Below, one piece after another: positions 2,037 through 29,345 of a DNA stretch of 33,084 nt. How positions within the stretch are numbered: position 1 is the first letter of the stretch; every line of letters begins with the position of its first letter. Position numbers and translations under genes: made by a program. Origin of the DNA: Myxococcales bacterium (GTDB lineage: Bacteria > Myxococcota_A > Polyangia > Polyangiales > Polyangiaceae); the NCBI GenBank assembly GCA_013297655.1, contig JAAFHV010000085.1:1-33084 (forward strand), given 5' to 3'. The notes beneath the pieces are model-generated. The model had not been told where the DNA came from. It saw only the letters and a program-made list of their open reading frames with translations, and searched no databases.

Positions 2037-3197
<1,161 letters not shown>

Positions 3198-3225
3198 GGC
3201 GTAGGCCTCGGTCGTAGTCACTCGG

Positions 3226-4119
3226 GTGTTTGCCGTGTCGTCGTTCAAGCGCTACCGCGACGTGGGCATCGTCATTCTGCTGCTCGCGCTGCCGTTCTTC
3301 TTTCTCCGGACGAACATGAAAAAGCCGGAGAACCTCAACGCGATGGATCGCGCGGTGCTCCGCGTGAGCGCGCCGGTCGAGTTCGGAGCGTCGAGCCTCG
3401 CGCGTGGTGTGTCCAACATGTGGGACAGCTACGTGTACTTGGTCGACGTGAAGTCCGACAACGAGCGCCTCTCGTATGAAAACGCGCGCCTCCGCGAGAC
3501 GGTGCATCGCCTCGAGCAGACCCAGGTCGAAAACCAAGAGCTTCGCCGCTTGCTCCAGCTCCGAGAGGGAATTCCCGGCGATCTCGTGAGCGCGCAGGTA
3601 GTCGCGAAAGACTTCAACGCGTTCTTCCGCGTCACGCGGGTGGTGCTCGATCGCGGCTCACGGAACGTGCGGCCGCACATGCCGGTCGTCGCCCCTGATG
3701 GCGTGGTCGGCTCCGTGCTCCGCGTCGCGGGCGATGCGGTCGACGTGCAGCTCGCCGCCGACGCGGGGTTCGGGCTCGACGTCGTGAACGAGCGCACCCG
3801 CGCGCGGGGCTACGTGCGTGGCACCGGCGACCCCTCCCGTTACTTCTGCAAGGTCGAGACCGTCGACTCCGCGGACGACGTCGAGGTCGGCGATCTTCTC
3901 GTCACGAGCGGCAAGGGCCACTGGTTCCCGAAGGGCCTCCCCGTCGCGAAGGTCACCAAGGTCACCAAGCGCGAGACGGGACGCGATCAAGAGATCGAAA
4001 CGACACCGACGGTGAACTTCTCGCGCCTCGATTCGGTGCTCATCCTCGTCACGCCGCCTCCGGACGGCGAGGGCCAAGAGGGCAAAGACTCGAAAGACAA
4101 GCCGAAGCCGAAGCCATGA
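3226..4119 (+). CDS. mreC: Rod shape-determining protein MreC
   Basis: A 297-residue single-pass inner-membrane protein whose periplasmic part activates PBP2 and links it to MreB. The transmembrane segment is near residues 13-30 (VGIVILLLALPFFFL). A coiled coil follows around residues 75-112 (DNERLSYENARLRETVHRLE), then the two beta-barrel-like MreC lobes containing VAPDGVVGSVLRV and VGDLLVTSGKGHWFPKGLPV. The GTG at 3226 is taken; a GTG three codons later is equally possible. The tail is short, charged and Lys/Pro-rich. It starts 28 nt after mreB and overlaps mreD by 4 bp (ATGA). Confidence 0.95.
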   Translation: MFAVSSFKRYRDVGIVILLLALPFFFLRTNMKKPENLNAMDRAVLRVSAPVEFGASSLARGVSNMWDSYVYLVDVKSDNERLSYENARLRETVHRLEQTQVENQELRRLLQLREGIPGDLVSAQVVAKDFNAFFRVTRVVLDRGSRNVRPHMPVVAPDGVVGSVLRVAGDAVDVQLAADAGFGLDVVNERTRARGYVRGTGDPSRYFCKVETVDSADDVEVGDLLVTSGKGHWFPKGLPVAKVTKVTKRETGRDQEIETTPTVNFSRLDSVLILVTPPPDGEGQEGKDSKDKPKPKP

Positions 4120-4700
4120 GATTTACTGCCTTTTTTGGGGCAGGTCTCGCGCTCCTGCTGCTTCAATCGAACCTCTTCCGGCTCGTCCTGCTCGCCGAGC
4201 ACGCGATCTCCGCGCTGCTCATGTGGATGCACCTGTCGAACCACGAGGTGCACGTGCCGGGGTTCCTCCCGCAGCTCGTGCTCCCGCTCGTGGTCTACAT
4301 GGGTGTGCACGAGTACTCGCTCGTGCGCGGCGCTTCGGTCGCGTTCGTGCTGGGCTACTTCACGGACCTCGTCGGCATCGCGCCGGTGGGGCTCTACACG
4401 TTCACGTACGTCGCTACGTTCGTGCTCGCGCGTGCGGCGGGGGTTCGCTTCGCGGCGCAGACGCGCTGGATGCAAGTGGTGCTCGCGCTGGTGTTCTCGC
4501 TCGTGCACTCCGTGATGGTCGTGATCTTGATCGCGATCTTCTGGAAGGACCGCGACGGCTGGATGCCGCGCATGATCGCGCCGATGGCCCTGCCGCACGT
4601 CATCGCGACGAGCATGACCGCGCCGCTCGTGTTCCGCCTCGCGCAGCGCATCCACCTGGCGACCCAAGGCGCGCTCCGTGATCCGGGGGCGCAGCCATGA
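4116..4700 (+). CDS. mreD: Rod shape-determining protein MreD
   Basis: A 194-residue polytopic inner-membrane protein, slightly longer than the usual ~165-180. It has about five hydrophobic spans: FFGAGLALLLL, LPLVVYMGVHEYSL, VAFVLGYFTDLVGIAP, YVATFVLARAAG and VVLALVFSLVHSVMVVILIA. The combination LGYFTDL...GLYTFTYV is typical of the family. MreD joins MreC in the elongation complex. Its start overlaps the mreC stop (ATGA at 4116) and its stop overlaps the mrdA start, so translation is probably coupled. Confidence 0.9.
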   Translation: MRFTAFFGAGLALLLLQSNLFRLVLLAEHAISALLMWMHLSNHEVHVPGFLPQLVLPLVVYMGVHEYSLVRGASVAFVLGYFTDLVGIAPVGLYTFTYVATFVLARAAGVRFAAQTRWMQVVLALVFSLVHSVMVVILIAIFWKDRDGWMPRMIAPMALPHVIATSMTAPLVFRLAQRIHLATQGALRDPGAQP

Positions 4701-6862
4701 GCGAGAGGCTCGTCCCGCGATCGGACGTAGGCGAATTTCGCAAGCGTTACCAGTGGATGGCGCTCTTCGCGTTCGTCGCGTTTTTCATCGTCGCGATCCG
4801 CCTCTTCCAGCTCCAGGTCATCGGCGGAAAAGAGTACGCCCAGGTCGCGCACGAGAACGTGATCCGGCGGGTGACGCTCTCCACCACCCGCGGGGTCATT
4901 CGCGACGCGTATGGCCGCGTGCTCGCGTCGAGCCGGCCCGCGTTCAACGTGTACATCGTGCCCGGCCGCGTGATGCCGAGCGCCCGCCCGCCGCGCAAGT
5001 GGGGCAACGTCGACGAGCGCGACTCGTTCCCGCAGATCGCGGACGCCCTTCGTCTGAACCCCGACGAGCGCGGGCGCCTCACCGCGAAGATCCGCGACGC
5101 CTGCGTGACCGACGAGGACAAGTCTCCCTGTTGGCACTCGATCCTCGTCCGCGAGGACGTGCCGCGCGACATCGTGGCGGAGCTCAAGCAGCACGCGTGG
5201 GAGCTCGTCGGCAGCGAGGTCGTGAGCGCGCCGGTGCGGCTCTATCCGTACAAGCAGCTCGGCTCGCACATGCTCGGCTACGTCGCGCAGGTCGACACCG
5301 AGACCCTCTCCAAGTTTCGCCCCGACAACTACAAGGCGATGACCGCGGAGGAGCGCGCGAAGGTAAATCCCTTGGGCTACGCGCCGGGCGACACCCTCGG
5401 GGCGACCGGGATCGAGCGCGCGTGGGAGGCCTATCTTCGCGGTCAGCGCGGCTGGGAGAAGCGCGTCGTCGACGCCCGCGGTCGCTACCACACCGGCCCC
5501 GAGGCCGAGCGCTTGCTCGACGATCCGAAGCGCCAAGAGCCGATCCCCGGCCGTGACCTCCGCCTCACGGTCGACATGGAGCTGATGGAGTCGATCGAGA
5601 AGGCGATGCGCCCGCAGATCTCCGGCGCGGTGGTCGTCGTCGACGTGCGCACCGGGCGGCTCCTTGCGCTCTACTCGAAGCCCGATTTCGATCCCAACGA
5701 TCTCTCTGGCGGCGCCGGGCGCGAGAAGGTCCGCGAGACGTTCAACAAGCTCTACGCCGACGCGCTCCGCCCGATGCTCGACAAGACCATGAGCGGCGCG
5801 TTCCAACCCGGCTCCACGTTCAAGCCGTTCTCCGCCCTCGCCGCCCTCGAGGCCAAGCTCATCAACCCCGCCGAGAGCGAGCGCTGCGACGGTTACCTCT
5901 ATTACGGACGTCGTGTGTTCCGCTGCTCGCACGTGCACGGCCGCGTGAACATGCGCGGCGCGATCGCGCAGTCCTGCAATATCTACTTCTATAGGCTCGG
6001 CGAGACCGTCGGCATCGACAGGCTCGCGAAGGTCGCCGCCGAGTTCGGCCTCGGCCAAAAGACGGGCCTCGGGATCAACCCGGAGGCGCAAGGCCGGGTG
6101 CCGACCCGCTCGTGGTACGCGCTCCGTTACAAGGGTCAGTTCCGCATCGGCTTCACCCTGAACTCGGCGATCGGCCAAGGCGCCACCACGGTGACGCCAC
6201 TCCAGCTCGCTCTCGCGTATGCCGCGATCGGCAACGGCGGCACGGTGTACATGCCGCAGGCGGTTCGTGCGATCGAGTCATCCGACGGCGCGGTCCTCCA
6301 AGACTTCCCTCCCCGCGTTCGTCAAAAGGCGCGCATCGAGCCGCAGAACCTGCAGCGCATCAACGACGGTCTCTTCGCCGTCGTGAACGAAGAGCACGGC
6401 ACCGCGTACCCGGTCCGCGATCCTGCGCTCGACATCGCGGGCAAGACCGGCACCGCGCAGACCGGCTACGTCGCGACCGGAAAAGACTCCGCGAAGACGG
6501 CGTGGTTCTTGGCGAAGGACCACGCGTGGTTCGCCTCGTTCGCGCCCTCCAAGTCGCCCGAGGTGGCGGTCGTCGTCCTCGCCGAGCACGGCGGCTCGGG
6601 CCCCACCATCGCGGCGCCGATCGCGATTCAAGTCGTGCGCGAGTACACCCGGCTCCGCGCGATCCGCGCCGGCAAACCCCCGCCCCCCGTTCCACAGAGG
6701 CCCAAGCCCGCCGCGGCTCCTGCGGGCGCGCCGCCAGGCCCGGTCCCCGATCCGCCCGCGACCCCCGATCCGAGCGATCCCCTCGCGCCGCCCATTCCCG
6801 TCGTGCCCACTGCGATCCCTCCTACCCCGCCCGGCGGAGACAAGGACGACGAAGCCCCATGA
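4697..6862 (+). CDS. mrdA: Penicillin-binding protein 2 (elongation transpeptidase)
   Basis: A 721-residue class B PBP that cross-links peptidoglycan during side-wall growth together with RodA. One transmembrane anchor lies near residues 22-40. A dimerisation domain follows (TTRGVIRDAYGRVLASS), then the transpeptidase domain with catalytic STFK at 373-376, SCN at 426-428 and KTGT at 583-586. A Cys pair around CDGYLYYGRRVFRC and the HVHGRVN segment match the metal-binding-like loop of PBP2. Beyond the catalytic domain there is a ~65-residue Pro/Ala-rich tail ending DKDDEAP, which is absent from typical PBP2. It overlaps mreD (ATGA) and rodA (ATGA). Confidence 0.95.
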   Translation: MSERLVPRSDVGEFRKRYQWMALFAFVAFFIVAIRLFQLQVIGGKEYAQVAHENVIRRVTLSTTRGVIRDAYGRVLASSRPAFNVYIVPGRVMPSARPPRKWGNVDERDSFPQIADALRLNPDERGRLTAKIRDACVTDEDKSPCWHSILVREDVPRDIVAELKQHAWELVGSEVVSAPVRLYPYKQLGSHMLGYVAQVDTETLSKFRPDNYKAMTAEERAKVNPLGYAPGDTLGATGIERAWEAYLRGQRGWEKRVVDARGRYHTGPEAERLLDDPKRQEPIPGRDLRLTVDMELMESIEKAMRPQISGAVVVVDVRTGRLLALYSKPDFDPNDLSGGAGREKVRETFNKLYADALRPMLDKTMSGAFQPGSTFKPFSALAALEAKLINPAESERCDGYLYYGRRVFRCSHVHGRVNMRGAIAQSCNIYFYRLGETVGIDRLAKVAAEFGLGQKTGLGINPEAQGRVPTRSWYALRYKGQFRIGFTLNSAIGQGATTVTPLQLALAYAAIGNGGTVYMPQAVRAIESSDGAVLQDFPPRVRQKARIEPQNLQRINDGLFAVVNEEHGTAYPVRDPALDIAGKTGTAQTGYVATGKDSAKTAWFLAKDHAWFASFAPSKSPEVAVVVLAEHGGSGPTIAAPIAIQVVREYTRLRAIRAGKPPPPVPQRPKPAAAPAGAPPGPVPDPPATPDPSDPLAPPIPVVPTAIPPTPPGGDKDDEAP

Positions 6863-11685: not shown

Positions 11686-12225
11686 TCACTTGGTCTTCGG
11701 GATCATGTTCACCATGAAGCTCACGTTCGGATAGCCGGCAAAAGCGGCCGTCTGGAACACGCTCTTCACGACGATCGCGGGCACGTCTTGGTCGACCTGG
11801 AGGACGACGACGCCGGGAAACTCTTTGCCCGGGTGGAGCTGCTTCCAGAGCTCGCGCTTGCCCTTGAGCACGTTGAAGAGCTCGTCGATGCGCTGGAGGC
11901 GCTTGGAGTCTTCGATCGCGCGGGTGTTGCCCGCGAGGTTGCCGTCCACCAGGATTTGGCTTCCGGCGATGCCCACCATCGGGGCGTCGATCATGTCGAG
12001 GGTGTTCTCCGCCTTGGGGAGATTCACGCCCTTGGCCACGGTGGTCTCACCGGAGGCGCTGAACGTCATGAGGAGGAACACCACCGTCACGACGAGGAAG
12101 TCGATCATGCTGGTGAGAGAGAGCGCCGCACCCACCGCGCGTCGTCCGCCGCCCGTCACCTTGTGCTGGACGAACTTGAGCGGCACGGCGTGCATGAGGC
12201 GACGGCCAGGCTTGTGAATGGTCAT
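11686..12225 (-). CDS. ExbD/TolR-type biopolymer transport protein (left module, second)
   Basis: A 179-residue protein of the ExbD/TolR family, the peptidoglycan-side partner of an ExbB/TolQ proton channel. A basic N-terminus is followed by one transmembrane helix (SLTSMIDFLVVTVVFLLMTF) carrying the conserved proton-path Asp at residue 42, then a periplasmic domain with the usual late segment VVLQVDQDVPAIVVKSVFQTA. Its ATG is 12 nt after the stop of the preceding exbD, so the two are one operon. It ends VNMIPKTK and is followed by a strong terminator. The long, loop-rich periplasmic part is larger than in E. coli ExbD (141 residues). Confidence 0.88.
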   Translation of the reverse strand: MTIHKPGRRLMHAVPLKFVQHKVTGGGRRAVGAALSLTSMIDFLVVTVVFLLMTFSASGETTVAKGVNLPKAENTLDMIDAPMVGIAGSQILVDGNLAGNTRAIEDSKRLQRIDELFNVLKGKRELWKQLHPGKEFPGVVVLQVDQDVPAIVVKSVFQTAAFAGYPNVSFMVNMIPKTK

Positions 12226-12237
12226 GGCTCGGAATCC

Positions 12238-12810
12238 TCAGTTGACCGCGAAGGTGACGTTGAACGAGGGCACCTTTTCGGCCTTGCCGCCGACGGTGTA
12301 GTCACGCTTCGCGCGGTAAATCGCGTCGATCACGCCGACGATGTAGACGTAGGGAACTTCGTTGTCGCAGTGGAGCACGGCCTGGTCGAACTTCTTGTCC
12401 GAGCCTTCGCGGTGCGTCCCGGTGGTCTTCCACTCTTGCTCGATCTTCTCGGCGAGCTCGGGGAAACGGATCACCTTGGTGGCGCCCTCTTTCACGAGGT
12501 TGTCTTTGCGGGGCACGTCGGTCGTGTTGATGACCGTGCCGCCTTGCTTCCAAACGAGCTTGAACACGTTCGGATCGTTCATGTGGACGTGAAGCTGCTT
12601 CTCGGGCTCGACGTTCACTTGCTCGTCCGGGCGCGGAGGACCGGGCACCTGCGCGTCTGCGTTGAGGCGCGCCATCTGCGACCAAACGGCCGTGATGAGC
12701 AAGAACGAGATGGTCACCATGAGGAGGTCGATGAACGGGATCATATTGACCTCCGAGTCGGTCGACCTACGACCACCATTTCCACCACCGCCGACGTCTA
12801 CTCCGCCCAT
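12238..12810 (-). CDS. ExbD/TolR-type biopolymer transport protein (left module, first)
   Basis: A 190-residue ExbD-family protein. I place the start at the ATG at 12810 (MGGVDVGGGGNGG) because GGTGGAG lies just upstream and because the short Gly-rich cytoplasmic tail then leads directly to the membrane helix. An in-frame ATG at 12894 would add 28 residues but has no ribosome binding site. The helix VNMIPFIDLLMVTISFLLIT carries the conserved Asp at residue 28. The periplasmic domain has the typical DNEVPYVYIVGVIDAIYRA segment. It lies between exbB (133-bp gap) and the second exbD (12-bp gap). Confidence 0.87.
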   Translation of the reverse strand: MGGVDVGGGGNGGRRSTDSEVNMIPFIDLLMVTISFLLITAVWSQMARLNADAQVPGPPRPDEQVNVEPEKQLHVHMNDPNVFKLVWKQGGTVINTTDVPRKDNLVKEGATKVIRFPELAEKIEQEWKTTGTHREGSDKKFDQAVLHCDNEVPYVYIVGVIDAIYRAKRDYTVGGKAEKVPSFNVTFAVN

Positions 12811-12943
12811 GATGCTGCTCCACCGATACTTGCTTTGAGGCTCGAGAGCCACGGCGCGCCGTGACCCTCGTTCCTTGATGGCTTGGCTAAACATTGGGGG
12901 AGCGACCCGTGCATCCTGCACGCGTCGCTCACCCGGCGTGACC

Positions 12944-13588
12944 TCACGCGGTGAGGTTCACCTTCTGGCGGTTCGTCACCACGAGGTTGAGCACTTGCAC
13001 GCTCGCCTCGTTGATGTCGTCCTCGAGCTGCTGGGTCTTGCCGTTGAGGACGGCGAACCCGATGAGGCCGATGAGGGCGACGACGAGACCGAACGCGGTG
13101 CACGCCATGGCCTCCGAGATGCCTTCCGCGAGGATGCGGGCTTTCTGGCTGGGGTCGACGCTCTCGCCGGACACCGCGCCGAAGCTGGTGATGAGACCGA
13201 CGACGGTGCCGAGGAGGCCCGAGAGCATGGAGAGGTTCGCCATGAGGGCGAGGTAGCCGGTGCGCTTTGCGATCTTGGGGATCTCGCGGAGGGCGGCTTC
13301 GTCCATCGCGGCCTGGACTTCTTCGTCCGGGCGGTTGACCTTCACGAGGCCCGCTTGAACGATACGCGCGAGGGGCGCGTTCGCGGCGGAGCACATCTTG
13401 ACGGCCTTGGCGACGTCGCCCGCGAGGATGCACTTCTGCATCGTGGCGAGGAAGACGTCTTTGTTAATCGAGGAGCCGTACAGGTAGATGGCCCGCTCGA
13501 TGATGATGCCGATCGTAACCATGGACCAGAAGAGGATGACCCACATCATCTTCCCGCCCATCTGAAACTGCTTCCACAAGCCAGCCAT
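12944..13588 (-). CDS. ExbB/TolQ/MotA-family proton channel (left module)
   Basis: A 214-residue inner-membrane protein. The first helix is near residues 13-33 (MMWVILFWSMVTIGIIIERA). The channel domain has the family pattern SMLSGLLGTVVGLITSFGAV in the second helix and GISEAMACTAFGLVVALIGL in the third, with the pore-lining Thr residues in place. GGAGG lies 7 nt before the ATG. It should conduct protons and drive the two ExbD partners encoded after it. No TonB, TolA or outer-membrane receptor is nearby, so the output of the motor is unknown. The closest named layout is AglR of the Myxococcus gliding motor; TonB-type energising is the alternative. Confidence 0.92.
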   Translation of the reverse strand: MAGLWKQFQMGGKMMWVILFWSMVTIGIIIERAIYLYGSSINKDVFLATMQKCILAGDVAKAVKMCSAANAPLARIVQAGLVKVNRPDEEVQAAMDEAALREIPKIAKRTGYLALMANLSMLSGLLGTVVGLITSFGAVSGESVDPSQKARILAEGISEAMACTAFGLVVALIGLIGFAVLNGKTQQLEDDINEASVQVLNLVVTNRQKVNLTA

Positions 13589-14543: not shown

Positions 14544-15233
14544 ATGTTCGTTGCGCTTTTGAGTGAAGGTAAGGCTGCTGCAGGCGGTGGCGGCAACAGC
14601 TTGATGGAGGCGTTCAAGGAGAACCCCGTCTTTCTTTCGTTCAACTTGGTGGTCAGCGCCATCGTGCTCGCGGTCGTCATCGAGCGCGCGGTGTTCCAGC
14701 TAGGTAAGTACCGCGTGAACTCGAAGGAGTTCTTCGCTCAGATCAAGAAGCTCGTTACGGCGGGCAACATCGATCGAGCGATCAAGCTGTGCGACGCCGG
14801 TGACTTTCCCACCCTCCAGCTCGTGAAGGCTGGCCTCACGAACGCGAGCAAAGGTCCGGACGAGATCGACGCGGCGATGAGCGAGAAGATCGGCGAGCTC
14901 AAGCCCGCGGTCGAGAAACGCATCGGCGCCCTCTGGTCGCTCGCGAACATCGCGACCCTCATCGGCCTGCTCGGCACGGTCGTCGGTCTCATTCACACGT
15001 TCGGCGCCGTCTCGGACCCGAACCTCTCGGCAGCGGATCGTCAGCGCGTGCTCGCGAACGGTATCGCCGAGGCGATGTACAACACCGCGATGGGCCTCGG
15101 CATCGCCGTCACGTGCATGATCGCGCACTTGATTCTTCACCAGCGCGCGAAGAACATTCAGCACGATCTCGACGCTACGCAGGAGCGTGTCTTCAACCTC
15201 CTCACGATCCAAACCCGCTCCGGCAACTTCTGA
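14544..15233 (+). CDS. ExbB/TolQ/MotA-family proton channel (right module)
   Basis: A 229-residue inner-membrane channel subunit, a clear paralogue of the divergently encoded ExbB. A Gly-rich start (AAAGGGGNSLMEAF) is followed by a first helix LSFNLVVSAIVLAVVIERAV. The cytoplasmic domain has AGNIDRAIKLCDAGDFP. The channel helices are ANIATLIGLLGTVVGLIHTF and NGIAEAMYNTAMGLGIAVTC, with the conserved Gly-rich and Thr positions. GAAAGGAG lies 7 nt before the ATG. The exbD start is 21 nt after its stop. Function: proton flow coupled to work on the envelope; the partner outside the module is not visible. Confidence 0.92.
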   Translation: MFVALLSEGKAAAGGGGNSLMEAFKENPVFLSFNLVVSAIVLAVVIERAVFQLGKYRVNSKEFFAQIKKLVTAGNIDRAIKLCDAGDFPTLQLVKAGLTNASKGPDEIDAAMSEKIGELKPAVEKRIGALWSLANIATLIGLLGTVVGLIHTFGAVSDPNLSAADRQRVLANGIAEAMYNTAMGLGIAVTCMIAHLILHQRAKNIQHDLDATQERVFNLLTIQTRSGNF

Positions 15234-15254
15234 GCGCGGGACGGGAGCCCCATC

Positions 15255-15830
15255 ATGGCGGAGACCGAAAAGCTCTCGGCGAGTCAGCGGGCGAAGGTTC
15301 GCCGGCTTTCCGCGCCGAAAGAGCTCGCGCCTGACGAAGAGGGCGGTGAGCTCAACATCGTCCCGTTCCTCGATATCGTCACGAACGTCCTCATGTTCGT
15401 GCTCGCTACCGTGAGCGTGACGTTCACGGCTACGATCGACAGCTATCCCCCGCGAGCGGGCGGAGGAGCCGGCCGTACGCCCACCACGAAGACCCTCAGC
15501 CTCACGGTGATCATCGTGAACGAGGGCTTCAGCATCAAAGCGAGCGGCGGCAACGTCGCTCCCGGCTGCAGCGACACGGGCCCCGGCATCGCGATCCCGA
15601 AGAAGGGCAACGACTACGACTTCGAGGGCCTCCGCGACTGCGCGGCGAAGCTCAAGTCCGCGGCGCCCGAGTTCGAGTCCGAAGAGCAGGTCACCATCAG
15701 CGCGAACCCGAACATCCCCTACCAGTTGGTCATCGGCGCGATCGACTACCTGCGCGAGGTCCCCAACCCGAACGATCCCCAGAAGCCGAGGCGCCTCTTT
15801 CCAGAGGTCAACTTCGGTCTGGCGCGCTGA
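15255..15830 (+). CDS. ExbD/TolR-type biopolymer transport protein (right module, first)
   Basis: A 191-residue ExbD-family protein. The N-terminal 33 residues are charged and cytoplasmic. The membrane helix LNIVPFLDIVTNVLMFVLAT carries the conserved Asp at residue 40; this is followed by a periplasmic domain with two cysteines (PGCSDTG, LRDCAAK) and the family-typical ISANPNIPYQLVIGAIDYLR. GGGAG lies just upstream of the ATG. Ten bases separate its stop from the next exbD start. The two cysteines may form a disulfide in the periplasm (inference). Confidence 0.88.
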   Translation: MAETEKLSASQRAKVRRLSAPKELAPDEEGGELNIVPFLDIVTNVLMFVLATVSVTFTATIDSYPPRAGGGAGRTPTTKTLSLTVIIVNEGFSIKASGGNVAPGCSDTGPGIAIPKKGNDYDFEGLRDCAAKLKSAAPEFESEEQVTISANPNIPYQLVIGAIDYLREVPNPNDPQKPRRLFPEVNFGLAR

Positions 15831-15841
15831 GGACCGCCACC

Positions 15842-16456
15842 ATGGCCAACCAGCCCCCCCCGCAAGCAAAACCGGCATCCACGCGCGCCCCGCAAAAGCA
15901 GGCGAGCATGGCCACGTACAAGCGTGAGCTGCGCAAGCAGATCAAGAAGCGCGCGGCAGAGCCGGAGATCAACTTCCTCAACATCACGGCGATGCTGGAC
16001 ATGATGACCATCATCCTCGTGTTCTTGCTGAAGAGCATGAGCGCGCAGTCGGCGTCGCTCCCGAAGTCGCAAGACCTCACGATGCCGAACAGCCTCCTCA
16101 CCACGGAGGCCTCGCAAGAGGGCCTCGCCGTGCTCGTCTCCAAGTCGAGCATCGTGGTGGACGACGCCGAGGTTTGCAAAGTGCCCGCCGACGCCACCCA
16201 CGGCGTCGAGGCGAAGTACAAGCGCTCCGGTCCGAACGACCTCTTCATTCAGCCCCTCGCCGCGCAGCTCCAACAGTGGCGCGAACGCGATCGTCAGATT
16301 CGCCTCGCGACTGGCAAAGACGCCAACGCGAGCGAAGCGATCCTCATCGTGGACAAGGACACGCCCTACCGTCTGCTCGTGGAGGTTCTCTTCACGCTCG
16401 GGCAAAGCGAGTTCGCCAAGTTCCACCTGATGGTCATGCAGGCGCCGAAGAAGTAA
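15842..16456 (+). CDS. ExbD/TolR-type biopolymer transport protein (right module, second)
   Basis: A 204-residue ExbD-family protein. A long Pro/Ala- and Lys/Arg-rich cytoplasmic tail (about 40 residues, with KRELRKQIKKR) is followed by the helix INFLNITAMLDMMTIILVFL, with the conserved Asp at residue 53. The periplasmic domain ends with the typical LIVDKDTPYRLLVEVLFTLG. GAGGA overlaps the stop of the preceding gene and acts as ribosome binding site. It is the last gene of the right module, followed by a hairpin. Confidence 0.88.
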   Translation: MANQPPPQAKPASTRAPQKQASMATYKRELRKQIKKRAAEPEINFLNITAMLDMMTIILVFLLKSMSAQSASLPKSQDLTMPNSLLTTEASQEGLAVLVSKSSIVVDDAEVCKVPADATHGVEAKYKRSGPNDLFIQPLAAQLQQWRERDRQIRLATGKDANASEAILIVDKDTPYRLLVEVLFTLGQSEFAKFHLMVMQAPKK

Positions 16457-17045: not shown

Positions 17046-17879
17046 ATGACTCTTCTAGGGTTCCTCTGCGCGTGGGCGAACACGCCTTTCGGCGTTGCGT
17101 TGGGCATCGCGCTCGTGTTCGCGGCGCTGTCGTGGAGCGGCGCGCTCTCGCTCTTTGCTGGCGGCGGCGACGACGCGGACGGAGACCACGAGGCCGATGG
17201 CGATCACGAGGCCGACGCGGACGGAGACCACGAAGCCGACGCGGATCACGACGCCGAAGATGGCGACGACGAAGAGGGCGACGACGAGGGCGACGAGCGC
17301 GGTGTGCTCGCGCACGTGCTCGCGCCGCTCGGCGTAGGGAAAGTGCCGCTCTCGGTCCTCTGGCAGTCGTTCGCGGTCGTGTTCGGGGTGACCGGGTACG
17401 CGGCGAACGTGCGCTACATCGCGCGCGGCGCGGTGCCCCTCGTGTCGCTCGCGTGGACCTTGCCGATCGCGTTCGTCGTCGCCTACGCGGTGGTCGCGAT
17501 GCTCGCGCGGATCCTCGCGCCGCTCTTCTCCACGGAGGCCTCGGAGGCGAGCTCGCGCTCCGATCTCCTGGGCCAGGTCGGGGTCGTCATCTCGTCGCAA
17601 GTGTCGGAGACGTTCGGCGAGGTGCGATTCCGCGAGAAAAATGGGCACGACGTGCGGGTCGTGTGCGCGCTCGACGAGGGGCTCCGACCGGCGCGCGAAG
17701 GCGAGAAGGTCGTGGTGGTGGGCGTGGACGTGGATACCAAGAAGATCCTGGTCGCGCCTCTGGACGCGTACGACGAGCCGCCTCCGCCTCCGCCTCCGCC
17801 TCCGCGTAACGCCGACGACGCCGCGAGCGCCGGGCCGGTCGTGACCCCCGAAGCGAGAGCCGCGCGCAAGTCCGCGTAG
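17046..17879 (+). CDS. YqiJ/NfeD-like OB-fold membrane protein, flotillin partner
   Basis: A 277-residue inner-membrane protein. Three helices are visible: FGVALGIALVFAALSWSGAL; VPLSVLWQSFAVVFGVTGYA; and a third around LAWTLPIAFVVAYAVVAMLA. Between the first two is a ~45-residue acidic His/Asp/Glu/Ala repeat (GDHEADADGDHEAD). The C-terminal part (GQVGVVISSQVSETFGEVRF to VVVVGVDVDTKKILVAPLD) fits an OB-fold as in YqiJ/NfeD proteins, then a run of nine prolines. The ATG at 17046 is chosen for GGGGAG 5 nt upstream. YqiJ-type proteins are known to be encoded next to flotillin YqiK, exactly as here. The acidic repeat may bind metal ions (inference). Confidence 0.85.
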   Translation: MTLLGFLCAWANTPFGVALGIALVFAALSWSGALSLFAGGGDDADGDHEADGDHEADADGDHEADADHDAEDGDDEEGDDEGDERGVLAHVLAPLGVGKVPLSVLWQSFAVVFGVTGYAANVRYIARGAVPLVSLAWTLPIAFVVAYAVVAMLARILAPLFSTEASEASSRSDLLGQVGVVISSQVSETFGEVRFREKNGHDVRVVCALDEGLRPAREGEKVVVVGVDVDTKKILVAPLDAYDEPPPPPPPPPRNADDAASAGPVVTPEARAARKSA

Positions 17880-17980
17880 CGACCGCGAAACTCCCATGTC
17901 CTGCTTCCCGTGCGCGCCTCCGCCCCGAGGTCGAGCTCGCGCGCGTCCACATTTCCAACCGAACAAGGAGACACAGAACC

Positions 17981-19903
17981 ATGCCGTCGATCGAGAACCT
18001 CATCGTCATCGGAGGCGCCGTCTTTGCGGGCGTCTTCGTGCTCGTGGCCACCACCCTCGTGATGTCGCGCTTCTACCGGCGCTGCGGCGCGGACGAAGCG
18101 CTCGTGCGTACGGGATCGGGCGGAAACAAGGTCGTCATCGGTGGAGGCATCCTCGTGTACCCCATCCTCCACCAGCTCCTCCGCGTGTCGCTGCGGAGCG
18201 TGAAGCTCTCCGTCGAGCGCAGCGGGAAGAACGCCCTCGTCACCGCCGACAAGATCAAAGCGAACGTGACGACCGAGCTCTACATCAAGGTCGAGCCGAT
18301 GTCGGACGACGTGCTCGCCGCCGCGCGATCGTTCGGCGAGCGAAACCTCGACGAGCACGCGATAGGCGACCTCATCGAAGGCAAGCTGACCGACGCGCTC
18401 CGCAGCGTGGCGGCGAACCAGACCTTCATGTCGCTCCACGGCAAGCGGAAGGACTTCGCGGAGCACATCCAGGCCTCCCTCGCGGAGGAGCTCAAGAAGA
18501 ACGGGCTCACCCTCGAGAACGTGTCGATCACGTCGCTCTCGATGGTGCAGGTGCGCGACCTCGACGACGACGACGTGTTCGACGCGGAAGGCCTCCGCGC
18601 GATTACCGAGAGCGTGCAGACGAACCGCGAAAAGACGAACCAAATCCAGCGCGAGAAGGAAAACCAGATCCACGCCCAGAACGTGACCGCCCGTATGCGT
18701 CAGCTCGAGCTCGAGCAAGCGCAGAAACAAGCCGAAGCAGACCAGGCCCGTAGGGTGGAGGAGTACGCCGCGGCGCAACAGGCCGAGATGCAAAAGGCCG
18801 TCTTCATCCAGAAGCAGTCGTCCGAGCTCGCCGCCTACGACAAACAGCGCATGGTCGAGACCGCGCGCATCCAACAGGAGCAGGCGATCGCGATCGCGAT
18901 GGCGGAGAAGCAGCGCGCCGAGCGGGAGGCCATGATCGCCGCGGAGAAGGGCCAGCTCTTCGCCGAGGTGAAGAAGCAGCGCGAGATCGAGACCGCCGAG
19001 ATCGAGAAGCGCAAGGCCCTCGAGACCGCGGAGATCGACCGTCAGAAGGTGATCGAGGCGTCGGTCATCGACAAGGAGCGCACCGTCGGCGCGGCACTCG
19101 TGCAGAAGGAACAAGCGATGGAAGTCGCCGGGATCGAGAAGGTGATCGCCGTCACCAAGAGCCAGGAGGAGCAGGCGCGGGCGTCGGCGCAGAAGGCGCT
19201 CGCGGTGGCGGAAGAGGAGCGCGCGCTCCAAGAGATTACGACCGTCGAGGTGGTCGCGAAGGCGAACCGCGAGCGGGAGGTGTCCGTGATCGCGGCGCAA
19301 GGTGAGGCCGCGGTGCGGATCGCGGAGAGCGAGGCGACGGCGCAGATGGCGCGCCTCGTCGCGCAGACGGCCGCGGACCGCGCGCGGATGGAGGCCGAGA
19401 CGCGGGTCGTGACCGCCGAGAAGGAGGCCGAAGCGATGAGCCTCCTCGCCAACGCGATCGCGACCAAGGGCGAAGCGGAGGCGAGCGCGCGACGCAAGAT
19501 GGTCGAAGCGGAGAACTCGCGGAGCCTCAAGCTCGTCATTCAAGACGTCACGAAGCACGCGATCGACGCCCTCCCCGAGATCGCACGCGAGCTGATGGCT
19601 CCCGCCCATTCAATCAAGGAAATCAAGGTGTTGCACACAACCGGAAATGGGCAGGGCGGCATGGGGCCGATGGGGGCGATGTCGCCGGTGGTGAAGACCT
19701 TGCTCGACGCCGGCGCGGCGTACCCGCTCATGAAGGAGCTCCTCGGGTTCGCGGACGTCGACACGAAGGCGCTCGAGAACAAGGCGCGCGCGCTGCTCGG
19801 TGAGATGGGCTCGGAAGCGAGCGAAGAGATCCGCGCCGAAGAGACCGCAGCGCCCGTGCAGGCCGAGGTGGAAGCAGCGCCTCCCTCGAAGCGCGCGGCG
19901 TGA
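17981..19903 (+). CDS. Flotillin / SPFH (band 7) family protein
   Basis: A 640-residue membrane scaffold protein of the YqiK/FloT type. One N-terminal helix (residues 6-28, LIVIGGAVFAGVFVLVATTL) is followed by the SPFH domain (about 35-200: SVKLSVERSGKNALVTADKI, LEEVSIT-like LENVSITSLSM). A very long Ala/Glu/Gln coiled coil of roughly 300 residues follows (AEIEKRKALETAEIDRQKV and related heptads), then a C-terminal region with GNGQGGMGPMGAM, which is typical for flotillin ends. Flotillins oligomerise into membrane microdomains. AAGGAG precedes the ATG by about 10 nt. It starts 101 bp after the OB-fold gene and is followed by the channel-like gene, so the three likely form one operon. Confidence 0.93.
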   Translation: MPSIENLIVIGGAVFAGVFVLVATTLVMSRFYRRCGADEALVRTGSGGNKVVIGGGILVYPILHQLLRVSLRSVKLSVERSGKNALVTADKIKANVTTELYIKVEPMSDDVLAAARSFGERNLDEHAIGDLIEGKLTDALRSVAANQTFMSLHGKRKDFAEHIQASLAEELKKNGLTLENVSITSLSMVQVRDLDDDDVFDAEGLRAITESVQTNREKTNQIQREKENQIHAQNVTARMRQLELEQAQKQAEADQARRVEEYAAAQQAEMQKAVFIQKQSSELAAYDKQRMVETARIQQEQAIAIAMAEKQRAEREAMIAAEKGQLFAEVKKQREIETAEIEKRKALETAEIDRQKVIEASVIDKERTVGAALVQKEQAMEVAGIEKVIAVTKSQEEQARASAQKALAVAEEERALQEITTVEVVAKANREREVSVIAAQGEAAVRIAESEATAQMARLVAQTAADRARMEAETRVVTAEKEAEAMSLLANAIATKGEAEASARRKMVEAENSRSLKLVIQDVTKHAIDALPEIARELMAPAHSIKEIKVLHTTGNGQGGMGPMGAMSPVVKTLLDAGAAYPLMKELLGFADVDTKALENKARALLGEMGSEASEEIRAEETAAPVQAEVEAAPPSKRAA

Positions 19904-20053
19904 AGGTTCACGCGGTGGCGCGTGACGCTCTTCGGATCGTCCCGGCGCTCATCTGGTGACGGCGGCGCGGGCTCGGGGACGTTCCCCGGGCTCGCGTCGC
20001 TGCGGTTCGCCGCTTCGACCCCGGACGTCCATCTGCAACTAAGGAGACGGAAC

Positions 20054-20548
20054 ATGACGACCTCGATGGCTACCGCGACCGCTCGTGCGAAAGCGGATGG
20101 TGCGAAGATCGATCTCGGTGCCCTCGTGATGAAGATGCTCGCGAGCGAGGGCAGCGCCGCGATGACAGGAGGGCTCGGGCGTGGGCTCCAGGAGGCCGCG
20201 GACGCCGACCCGCTCGGCACCTTGGCGAAGACGGTGGCGGCGGCGAGCACCGTGTTTTATATCGCCGAACGAGGGAAAAACCCGAAGGTAAAGAGCCTGC
20301 ACGATGCGCTCGTGCTCATCACGACGAGCCTCTCGGTGGGCTGCACGGACATCTTTCCGCGGACGAAGGTGGGAAAGCTCGTCACGTCGTTCGTGATGGC
20401 GATAGGCCCCGGGCTCTCGTCGCGCGCGCTCGAGCACCCCGATGGACCACCCGAGGCGCGCGCGATGAACGAGCTCGTCGCGTCGCAGAAAGAGCTCGCC
20501 GCGAAGCTCGAGCGGCTTGTGAAGGCACTGGAGGCGCAGCGGCGCTGA
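20054..20548 (+). CDS. Small K+-channel-pore-like protein with altered filter
   Basis: A 164-residue protein. The ATG at 20054 is chosen for AAGGAG 7 nt upstream. From about residue 57 it follows the order of a two-helix K+ channel pore: a moderately hydrophobic helix ending FYIAERG (KcsA has LAERG at this point), a turret, a pore helix SLHDALVLITTSL, the filter position SVGCTD at 94-99 (canonical TVGYGD), DIFPRTKVGK (canonical DLYPVT..GR) and an inner helix LVTSFVMAIGPGLSS. A C-terminal coiled coil follows (LVASQKELAAKLERLVKAL). The resemblance is seen directly; whether it conducts ions is unknown because the filter is changed and the first helix is weak. It follows the flotillin gene. Confidence 0.65.
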   Translation: MTTSMATATARAKADGAKIDLGALVMKMLASEGSAAMTGGLGRGLQEAADADPLGTLAKTVAAASTVFYIAERGKNPKVKSLHDALVLITTSLSVGCTDIFPRTKVGKLVTSFVMAIGPGLSSRALEHPDGPPEARAMNELVASQKELAAKLERLVKALEAQRR

Positions 20549-27219: not shown

Positions 27220-29345
27220 TGGGCACGAAGACCGTCTCCCCTCTGCGGCTGACCGACGTTCTGGGGGCTCTCCCTCCCTCGGAGCTCGACGCCCTGATCG
27301 CGCGCCTCGGCGTGCGCATCGATCCGGCGAAGCGCCTCGACGTGCCGGCGCAGGTCGCGCGCGCGCTCGTGCAGCTCCCGGACTTGCGTGACCCGAGTCG
27401 CCTGCCGGCCCCGAGCGTGGAGCTCTTGCACCGCGTCGCGGAGGCGAACGGTGTCTTGTTCGTCACCACCGTGCCCGCCGCGCTCGAGCCACTGTCGGCG
27501 CGCGGCATCGTGTTCGCGCGAGGAAAAAAAGGCGCGATCGAGCTCATCCTGCCGATCGCGTACCTCGTGCAAATGCGCTCGTGGGAGGGCGAGGATCCGC
27601 GCGGCCTTCGCGCGCTCTTGGCGCAAGCTCCGTTCGAGACGGCGAGCGCGGTCGCGGCGCACTACCTCGGGCGACCGGCCACGCCGCCGGTGGCGCTCTC
27701 GCTCGAGACCGCGTGGGAGGTGCTCGGTCAAGGCGAGCGCCTCGCGGAAGAAATCGAGAAGCTCGCGCCGACCGAGCGCCGGGTCCTCGAAGGAGTCGTC
27801 CAAGAAGGCGGCGAGGTCGAGACCGACGAGCTGCTCGAGCTCGAACGCGAGCCGCTGCGCCTCCGCACCGCGCAAGGCCCCACCCAAACGCGACGCGGCG
27901 TGGGCTTCTCGCTCGAGCGACGCGGATTCCTCGTTCCCGTACACCCGAACCGCCACGTGGTCCCCACCGAGGTGGCGCGGATCATCGGCGCCGAGTCGCA
28001 CGAGGAGCGCGAGCAGCGTCGCCGTGACGTCAAGACGTTCGCGATCGGGGGCGACCACTCCCCTCGTCGTGCGCGCTTCACCCAAGATCCCGCGCCCCTC
28101 GCCGTGGGCCTCGCGCTCTCCGCGCGGGAGCCAGGCAGCGAGACGCGACCCACGATCGGCACCCCGAAATCGCTGGTGCAAAAGCTCGCGACCCGTTTCG
28201 GTCGCGATCCGGCCCATGTCGCGCTCCTCGTCGCGCTCTCTCGCGCGATCGGCTTGTGGGACGCCGGGGCGCTAAGCGTCGCGGGCCCACCTGGCTCGCT
28301 CTTCATGGGCGACATTTCGCGCGTGCTCTTCGAGACGTGGCTCCGAGGTGGCGCTTGGGACGAAGCTCGGCCCGAGTCCGAGGTGCTGCGCATCGGCGTC
28401 GACGCACGCGACGGCAGCCCGGTCGGCGTGGTGCGCGAGCTCGTGCTCGAGGCGCTCCGCGACCTCGGAGAGGACTGGCTCCCCGTAAGCGCGCTCCTCG
28501 GCTACGTGAAGAGCGACCATCGCCTCCCGGGTCTCACGCGTCTGTTTCGGCGCTGGAGCGAGCGGGTGGGCGTGGAGCCGCAGTCTCCCGCCGACGTCGC
28601 CGATCGCATCCTCAAGGAGACGCTGCCCGCGCTCGGTATCGTGGACCTCGGCGAAGAGGGCGAACAAGACGTCACCTTGCGCCTCACGCCGCGTGGGCGC
28701 GCGCTCGTGAACCGCCGCGAGGTGCCGAGCGAAGAGGCAAAATCCAAATTCCTCGACACGCACGTGCTCCGGGTCGGCGCCGGCGCGCGCATCGCTTCGG
28801 TGCTTCAAATCGCCGCGTTCGTCGAGGTGGGCCGCATCGGCGCGGAGCTCGATTTGCTCGTCGCTCCGCAGACCTTGGCGCGCGCTCTCTCGGCCGGCTT
28901 CGAAGCCGACGTGCTCCGTCAGCGGATCGAGGCGGTCGCGCCCCTCCCCGAGTCGCTCTCGCGCACCCTCGAGCAAGCGAGCGTGGTGCTCGGACGCGGC
29001 ACCTTCGCTGCCGCAAACGGCTTCTTGTGGGTCGAGGACGCGAACATTCGCGAGCTGCTGCGCACCGCCAAATCGACCCAAGAGCTCTTCGTCGATCCGT
29101 CGCCGCAAGGAGGCCTCTTGGTGGTCGCGGGGGTCGATCTCGACCGCCTCGCGCGTCGCTGCCGAACGGTCGGCGTCGAGGTGATCGCCGAGGGCAACGT
29201 CGTCCGCGCGCGCACGGTGCCGCCGCCTCCGGTCGCCCCGCGCTCGCAGTCGTCGTCGCGCGTTCTTCGGGTCGATGGTCCGGCGAGGAACCTCACGCCG
29301 CAGCCCCGCAGCATGACGCCCCCTCCCCGCAAACGCGACCCGTAG
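27219..29345 (+). CDS. Helicase-associated C-terminal domain (Helicase_C_3-like) protein
   Basis: A 708-residue protein. No Walker A or B helicase motifs are visible. The region around residues 530-610 (VLQIAAFVEVGRIGAELDLL, VAPQTLARALSAGFEADVLR, LPESLSRTLEQ) resembles the domain found at the C-terminus of XPB-like helicases and in stand-alone actinobacterial proteins. The first 500 residues look like repeated winged-helix-type segments (VLEGVVQEGGEVETDELLEL, DWLPVSALLGYVKSDHRLPG). The tail is Ser/Pro/Arg-rich. A role in DNA or nucleoprotein binding is likely but unproven. The start is GTG at 27219. It is divergent from the methyltransferase gene across a 193-bp gap, and its stop overlaps the first bases of a large hairpin. 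Confidence 0.75.
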   Translation: MGTKTVSPLRLTDVLGALPPSELDALIARLGVRIDPAKRLDVPAQVARALVQLPDLRDPSRLPAPSVELLHRVAEANGVLFVTTVPAALEPLSARGIVFARGKKGAIELILPIAYLVQMRSWEGEDPRGLRALLAQAPFETASAVAAHYLGRPATPPVALSLETAWEVLGQGERLAEEIEKLAPTERRVLEGVVQEGGEVETDELLELEREPLRLRTAQGPTQTRRGVGFSLERRGFLVPVHPNRHVVPTEVARIIGAESHEEREQRRRDVKTFAIGGDHSPRRARFTQDPAPLAVGLALSAREPGSETRPTIGTPKSLVQKLATRFGRDPAHVALLVALSRAIGLWDAGALSVAGPPGSLFMGDISRVLFETWLRGGAWDEARPESEVLRIGVDARDGSPVGVVRELVLEALRDLGEDWLPVSALLGYVKSDHRLPGLTRLFRRWSERVGVEPQSPADVADRILKETLPALGIVDLGEEGEQDVTLRLTPRGRALVNRREVPSEEAKSKFLDTHVLRVGAGARIASVLQIAAFVEVGRIGAELDLLVAPQTLARALSAGFEADVLRQRIEAVAPLPESLSRTLEQASVVLGRGTFAAANGFLWVEDANIRELLRTAKSTQELFVDPSPQGGLLVVAGVDLDRLARRCRTVGVEVIAEGNVVRARTVPPPPVAPRSQSSSRVLRVDGPARNLTPQPRSMTPPPRKRDP

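Follow-up and report, generated by a model that had tools for sequence, protein, structure and literature searches.

An operon that joins an SPFH2 gene (flotillin, YqiK or YuaG) to an NfeD2 gene (YqiJ or YuaF) was described by Hinderhofer et al. 2009 (PMC2636767), where the NfeD2 gene is accompanied by a single SPFH2 gene or by two; the main text, as far as it was available, does not contain the word 'channel'. Operons composed of a Band-7/flotillin protein, YqiJ and an AAA+ ATPase/beta-propeller, some of them with PspA, are the subject of PMC11237479, in the available part of which the sole mention of a potassium channel (a ligand-sensing one) belongs to a different operon group. In the available parts of two further reports, human stomatin is described as enclosing AQP1 and UT-B (PMC12407830), and mammalian flotillin as forming a membrane-bound cage (PMC11260169). 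Here we studied a 33,084-nucleotide stretch of a Myxococcales bacterium (assembly GCA_013297655.1, contig JAAFHV010000085.1), which as a whole is called the window, and in it a trio of genes encoding a YqiJ-like protein, a flotillin and a homologue of potassium (K+) channel pores. It remains to be established what bacterial flotillins organise, and coupling between SPFH proteins and channels is known mainly from animals, in which stomatin-family proteins, MEC-2 among them, regulate or enclose channels. In the open-access literature, a channel-like third member of a flotillin operon is described nowhere in the titles or opening lines of abstracts among the matches listed.

Results

The third protein of the trio is a homologue of K+-channel pores

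The three genes of the trio all lie on the + strand:

17046..17879, + strand: YqiJ-like membrane protein, an NfeD2-type flotillin partner, 277 aa (PF21001 YqiJ_N, E 2.7e-8)
17981..19903, + strand: flotillin/YqiK-type SPFH protein, 640 aa (Pfam Band_7, E 2e-14; Flot, E 2.8e-21)
20054..20548, + strand: K+-channel pore homologue with altered filter, 164 aa (PF07885 Ion_trans_2)

By sequence comparison the third protein is a homologue of K+-channel pores, as the original prediction had supposed, and the resemblance goes beyond chance. With its gene start corrected to the ATG at 20054, it matches PF07885 Ion_trans_2 at 23.8 bits (cut-off 22.5; E 4.2e-5), and Ion_trans_2 is matched by 27 of the 28 family members at E<=0.01. 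KvAP was the best solved relative in a single-sequence phmmer search (E 0.0016) and again with a 28-row family profile (E 2.4e-9), in which KCNQ2 came next and KcsA followed at E 2e-6 and weaker. The AlphaFold model of the single chain (mean pLDDT 84.5, pTM 0.65) predicts the arrangement of first transmembrane helix (TM1), pore helix, filter and second transmembrane helix (TM2) that is found in such pores:

20159..20206, + strand: helix, residues 36-51 (DSSP on the model), read from its position only as a slide helix before TM1
20210..20269, + strand: TM1, residues 53-72, weakly hydrophobic (model)
20297..20332, + strand: pore helix, residues 82-93, shorter by one residue than that of control K+ channels and without WW (model and family comparison)
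20333..20347, + strand: filter SVGCT, residues 94-98, replacing TVGYG
20366..20422, + strand: TM2, residues 105-123, containing Gly118-Pro119, which does not vary in the 28-row alignment (model and alignment)
20450..20542, + strand: C-terminal helix, residues 133-163 (model)

The structure prediction that had been proposed as a check thus returned a K+-channel pore fold, in the AlphaFold model as well as in the Foldseek and VIA-align comparisons made with it. The best 50 of 879 Foldseek rows with E<=10 are K+ channels plus one NaK-based chimera, with Kv4.2 at the top (E 2.1e-3, prob 1.00). VIA-align superimposed residues 52-124 on KCNQ4 with 1.4 A over 73 residues and a Z of 10.8, a value to be read with the tool's own warning that Z below about 13 can come from a common helical arrangement; its matches include a few glutamate-receptor pores. 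This warning counts against the predicted fold, as does the fact that no Foldseek match reaches E 0.001, so that the case for the fold leans on sequence homology too. We rejected a chance or mis-annotated open reading frame, because the family alignment, the KvAP profile match and the fold prediction agree.

The pore gene is linked with flotillin and YqiJ in three arrangements

A search of 377 genomes of the phylum, with the family cut at E<=2.5e-16, gave 29 places in 28 genomes, the next score being 3.6e-10, where ordinary channels begin. At 24 of these 29 places the pore gene is adjoined by flotillin and/or YqiJ. A pattern scan across 84,980 species genomes contributed another 51 loci, and removal of duplicates left 63 distinct members. 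The searches behind the linkage count used alignments of the pore protein alone. The neighbourhood survey, suggested beforehand as a check on whether the third gene recurs near flotillins, found flotillin and/or YqiJ no more than 6 kb from 50 of the 63 members. Three arrangements occur: yqiJ>flotillin>pore (A, 29 loci), pore>yqiJ>flotillin (B, 10 loci) and pore divergent from yqiJ>flotillin (C, 11 loci). A few of the linked loci, some of them on short contigs, showed only a single partner. Around ordinary K+ channels, taken as a control, a flotillin or YqiJ match occurred in 0 of 20 regions (6.6-12.4 kb).

By the 6 kb criterion 13 loci are solo. In one of these, L036 (genome G066), the partners lie at longer range, flotillin at about 7.7 kb and yqiJ at about 9.8 kb, and a large ATPase gene stands between. 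Some solo copies have conserved neighbours of other kinds. In a solo clade (L048, L079, L082, L084, L086) a conserved 248-aa gene of a kind not recognised, beginning VLxRGRRSPDQTEVRRDL, follows the pore gene in four, the L048 gene call being the one without it; in the solo loci L108 and L110 a conserved gene of about 440 aa (MTIDLTKLLRVPPDDARVSRMAAG...) precedes the pore gene and is possibly a different partner.

Spacing was scored in 27 of the 29 loci with arrangement A. The distance from flotillin stop to pore start is +4 bp in 11 and an overlap (-1 or -4) in 5, and 22 of the 27 pore starts lie within 10 bp of the flotillin stop, overlaps included, these gaps being subject to a script that chose the start codon nearest the flotillin stop and so favoured small values. 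For the window the script chose a GTG 18 bp after the flotillin stop, whereas the preferred ATG, which has a Shine-Dalgarno sequence, lies at 150 bp; among relatives that share this order, the spacing is mostly a few bases.

The family departs from ordinary K+ channels in filter, pore helix, hinge and hydrophobicity

Of 64 distinct members, 62 have S, 63 have V, all 64 have G and 60 have Y at the successive filter positions, and the position of the second filter glycine is occupied by A, S, D, C, H or T, glycine being absent in 63 of 64; L040 is the single member that retains it, and the alignment of L059 is unsure at that position. The window filter reads SVGCT, so that the filter tyrosine is missing too. 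Since the genome-contig scan used a pattern fixed to SVG[YC], which biases these filter counts, the 29 places of the phylum search serve as the unbiased set; there SVG occurs in 26/29 and Y in 25/29, and the second glycine is missing in 28/29. Moreover, all 63 members scored have a pore helix shorter by one residue and lack the WW pair, whereas the 21 scored control channels, which are lower-ranked matches of the same phylum search rather than a random draw, have the longer spacing in 20, WW in 20 and the second glycine in 21. The hinge carries a Gly-Pro pair in 62/63 members versus 0/21 controls. The best 19-residue hydropathy window reaches 0.55-1.98 in the family versus 1.67-2.70 in controls for TM1, and 0.75-1.77 versus 1.83-2.53 for TM2.

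The TVGYG/TVGFG signature of K+-selective channels is lacking in the family (second glycine in 1/64), and we therefore do not file it as a canonical K+ channel. On its filter and pore-helix signature, identity with an ordinary K+ channel was rejected; as far as sequence can tell, the third protein is not a canonical K+ channel.

A second trio and an ATPase-bearing subtype

The host assembly holds a second trio on a 23 kb contig (C60), in the order pore, yqiJ, SPFH protein. This assembly is a draft with 4.45% estimated contamination, and the contig likely, not certainly, belongs to the same organism as the window. Starting at its N-terminus, the SPFH protein encoded there can be aligned with the flotillin of the window (26% identity, E 2e-35); Pfam gave no match in either the SPFH or the YqiJ-like protein of this contig. 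A third host SPFH gene (L172; contig C535, 1-1005) lies at a contig edge, and no pore or yqiJ match was present in the 6 kb taken.

The SPFH and YqiJ-like proteins of the B and C loci were identified by iterated profiles, mostly without a Pfam match: Band_7 was found in 7/18 and Flot in 1/18 of the SPFH proteins, and YqiJ_N in 2/21 of the partners. A large DUF3686 (DUF3686/DUF7902) ATPase gene is present in 15 of the 21 B and C loci (L032, L033, L037, L039, L040, L051, L053, L056, L065, L066, L068, L080, L083, L092 and L109) versus none of the 29 A loci, window included, in the stretches examined. The pore-family tree clusters the arrangements, with 12 changes versus a shuffled mean of 30.4; built from few columns and with poorly resolved forks, it shows only that they cluster.

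Records of the family belong mostly to Myxococcota or 'delta-proteobacteria', among them Minicystis rosea, Polyangium, Labilithrix and many metagenome-assembled genomes (MAGs). Order A also occurs in two Anaerolineales MAGs (L088, L098) and one Actinomycetota MAG (L111), the latter on a 6 kb contig that could be mis-binned; these three loci, which make up the whole spread outside Myxococcota, suggest transfer or a wider distribution.

The gene pair, its leaders and the surroundings of the trio

Having an SPFH domain, a Flot C-terminal domain and an adjacent YqiJ/NfeD2 partner, the first two genes of the trio are an SPFH2 flotillin-YqiJ/NfeD2 operon, and the matches to YqiJ_N, Band_7 and Flot in adjacent genes bear out the expectation of a known pair. 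The YqiJ-like gene had also been taken for an OB-fold partner: its YqiJ_N match agrees with the partner role, whereas the NfeD C-terminal OB domain itself reaches only a sub-threshold Pfam match (E 0.0084). Both the flotillin and the pore gene are preceded by the same short leader:

17965..17972, + strand: AAGGAGAC, Shine-Dalgarno-like, 8 nt before the flotillin ATG
20041..20048, + strand: AAGGAGAC, Shine-Dalgarno-like, 5 nt before the pore ATG

The similarity of these leaders, which had been pointed out before, is real; a further copy of AAGGAGAC lies at 28614, and we rejected a special shared signal and read the leaders as ordinary Shine-Dalgarno sequences, that is, as ordinary ribosome-binding sites. 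Inside the trio, the + strand showed no terminator-like site.

Opposite the flotillin gene runs a 708-codon open frame (17483-19609, - strand), taken as the shadow frame of a GC-rich gene. Upstream of the trio lie two separate ExbB-ExbD-ExbD (TolQ/TolR-like) sets close together, at 14544-16456 (+ strand) and 11686-13588 (- strand), and a likely cell-shape operon at 2070-6862, with an MreB gene, two further genes that from context alone are possibly MreC/MreD, and a penicillin-binding transpeptidase. Among the Pfam-scanned genes of the window neither pspA nor CesT/Tir genes turned up, no model search having been aimed at them.

Discussion

The linkage in three gene orders, the close spacing in arrangement A and the second trio in the same assembly make it very likely that the three genes share a function. 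In the reading that we consider most likely, the third protein serves a flotillin microdomain as its dedicated pore or as a subunit derived from a pore. Whether the trio as a whole forms a functional module, namely a flotillin microdomain with its own pore subunit, we regard as evenly balanced, and everything said here on complex, tetramer, conduction, gating and role is conditional on it. In such a module, the SPFH domain and coiled coil of flotillin would mediate its oligomerisation on the inner membrane, with the YqiJ/NfeD-type protein anchoring or assembling it. The K+-channel-type subunit with its two helices would come together, as a tetramer if the analogy holds, inside the flotillin ring or next to it. 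The result might be a weakly selective or low-conductance pore for monovalent cations, an expectation that follows from a filter retaining the inner S-V-G-Y half and losing the outer glycine; its opening could depend on the state of the scaffold or the lipid, and the cell may use it for local adjustments of membrane potential or ion balance. By analogy, a pore partner inside or beside an SPFH ring would be the simplest mechanism. The half-filter suggests weaker selectivity, like that of Trk/Ktr-type transporters, which keep one filter glycine. The scaffolded channel or membrane-stress device of the original prediction is in this respect partly supported: a scaffolded conducting channel or a role in membrane stress would go one step beyond the linkage and homology found here, and an ordinary K+ channel identity is not supported by filter, pore helix, hinge or hydrophobicity.

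Several observations weigh against a flotillin microdomain with a conducting pore subunit. Gene linkage indicates shared function, not contact. The absence of the second filter glycine and the weak hydrophobicity of TM1 and TM2 are both unfavourable for a normal conducting channel. The association is also incomplete from either side. Twelve of the 63 members remain solo (L082 at a contig end), so the pore protein can be kept without a neighbouring flotillin. Conversely, the Flot domain (PF15975, E<=1e-6) has 46 matches in 45 of the 377 genomes, and by coordinates the pore gene adjoins 15 of these and is not a neighbour of the other 31; in 16 of those 31 loci that were fetched, the pore gene was present in none within the stretch taken. 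In two of these 16, from genomes G177 and G355, the flotillin is closely related to that of the window and yqiJ is in its place, with the pore gene missing, which indicates that the pore can be absent or lost. Finally, the window pore copy is fast-evolving, its end branch of 1.02 (median 0.21) being among the longest; it shares 48% and 54% identity with L062 and L064, which are 77% identical between themselves, and the window flotillin is likewise more diverged (61% versus 75% among kin). With its long branch, its lower identity to kin and its missing filter tyrosine, the window copy may be an atypical family member.

The most specific form of the preferred reading, in which the half-filter proteins (S-V-G-Y, no outer glycine) are a new K+-channel-derived family of dedicated flotillin-caged channels that conduct only inside their cognate flotillin/YqiJ ring, is put forward tentatively. 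A serious rival, if a somewhat doubtful one, keeps the channel-pore fold and gives up conduction, the protein then being an oligomeric membrane anchor, a plug or a lipid/tension sensor for the flotillin assembly. What makes it serious is the low hydrophobicity together with the loss of the second glycine (63/64), to which the short pore helix without WW (63/63), the Gly-Pro hinge (62/63) and a window copy devoid of the filter tyrosine can be added. Against it stands the near-invariance of the inner S-V-G, which argues that an ion-coordinating role is retained, a near-invariance to be read with the fixed scan pattern and the somewhat lower counts of the 29 unbiased places in mind. Very improbable is an ordinary K+ channel whose place beside flotillin is incidental or reflects shared expression only: the Ion_trans_2 match, the KvAP homology and the solo copies would fit, but 50 of 63 members are linked in three arrangements versus 0 of 20 ordinary channels, and the filter is unlike that of all 21 scored controls. 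Least probable by our estimate is an effector in stress or defence: the flotillin scaffold would keep a membrane-permeabilising pore inactive until an attack sets it free. The small size of the membrane protein and its conserved cassette, in which gene order varies and some copies are solo, might speak for this, but PADLOC gave no match for the three window proteins, and with the window sequence alone as query plasmids gave no match and viral contigs no confirmed relative. A phage, plasmid or defence origin was rejected on the same searches, PADLOC having returned nothing of note; its two matches of the paralogue to Cas11e (E 0.005-0.006) are taken as chance.

For bacterial flotillins the conserved pore-like partner offers a specific, testable client, and the trio would allow SPFH-channel coupling to be studied in a three-gene bacterial cassette. 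Additionally, these K+-channel-type pores form a family that naturally lacks the outer filter glycine, and it has a bearing on the question of which filter parts are needed for ion coordination; our literature search on the K+-channel filter glycine found no paper.

Compared with KcsA- and KvAP-type pores (Ion_trans_2), the family has detectable homology and the same predicted TM1-pore helix-filter-TM2 fold, and differs in its filter (S-V-G-Y-[A/S/D/C/H/T] versus T-V-G-Y-G), its pore helix (one residue shorter, no WW), its Gly-Pro hinge and its low hydrophobicity. With regard to the operons in the available part of PMC2636767, the first two genes of the trio correspond to the SPFH2-NfeD2 pair, whereas here a pore-like third gene is a regular member. 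The B and C loci resemble the operons of PMC11237479, again as far as that source was available, in that 15 of 21 carry the DUF3686 ATPase, taken to be the ATPase of those operons; the A loci differ from them in showing it nowhere in the stretch examined. What appears new relative to the known flotillin-YqiJ pair, our data suggest, is a regular pore-like third gene with an altered filter in myxobacteria and a few other bacteria. Like the animal stomatin-channel pairs, to the extent that the available parts of those reports describe them, the trio pairs an SPFH scaffold with a membrane pore; unlike them, its pairing is known from gene linkage alone and joins a flotillin-type SPFH protein to a bacterial K+-channel-like pore. 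If the proteins do act as flotillin-caged channels, they would be a prokaryotic, genetically linked counterpart of the animal stomatin-channel complexes.

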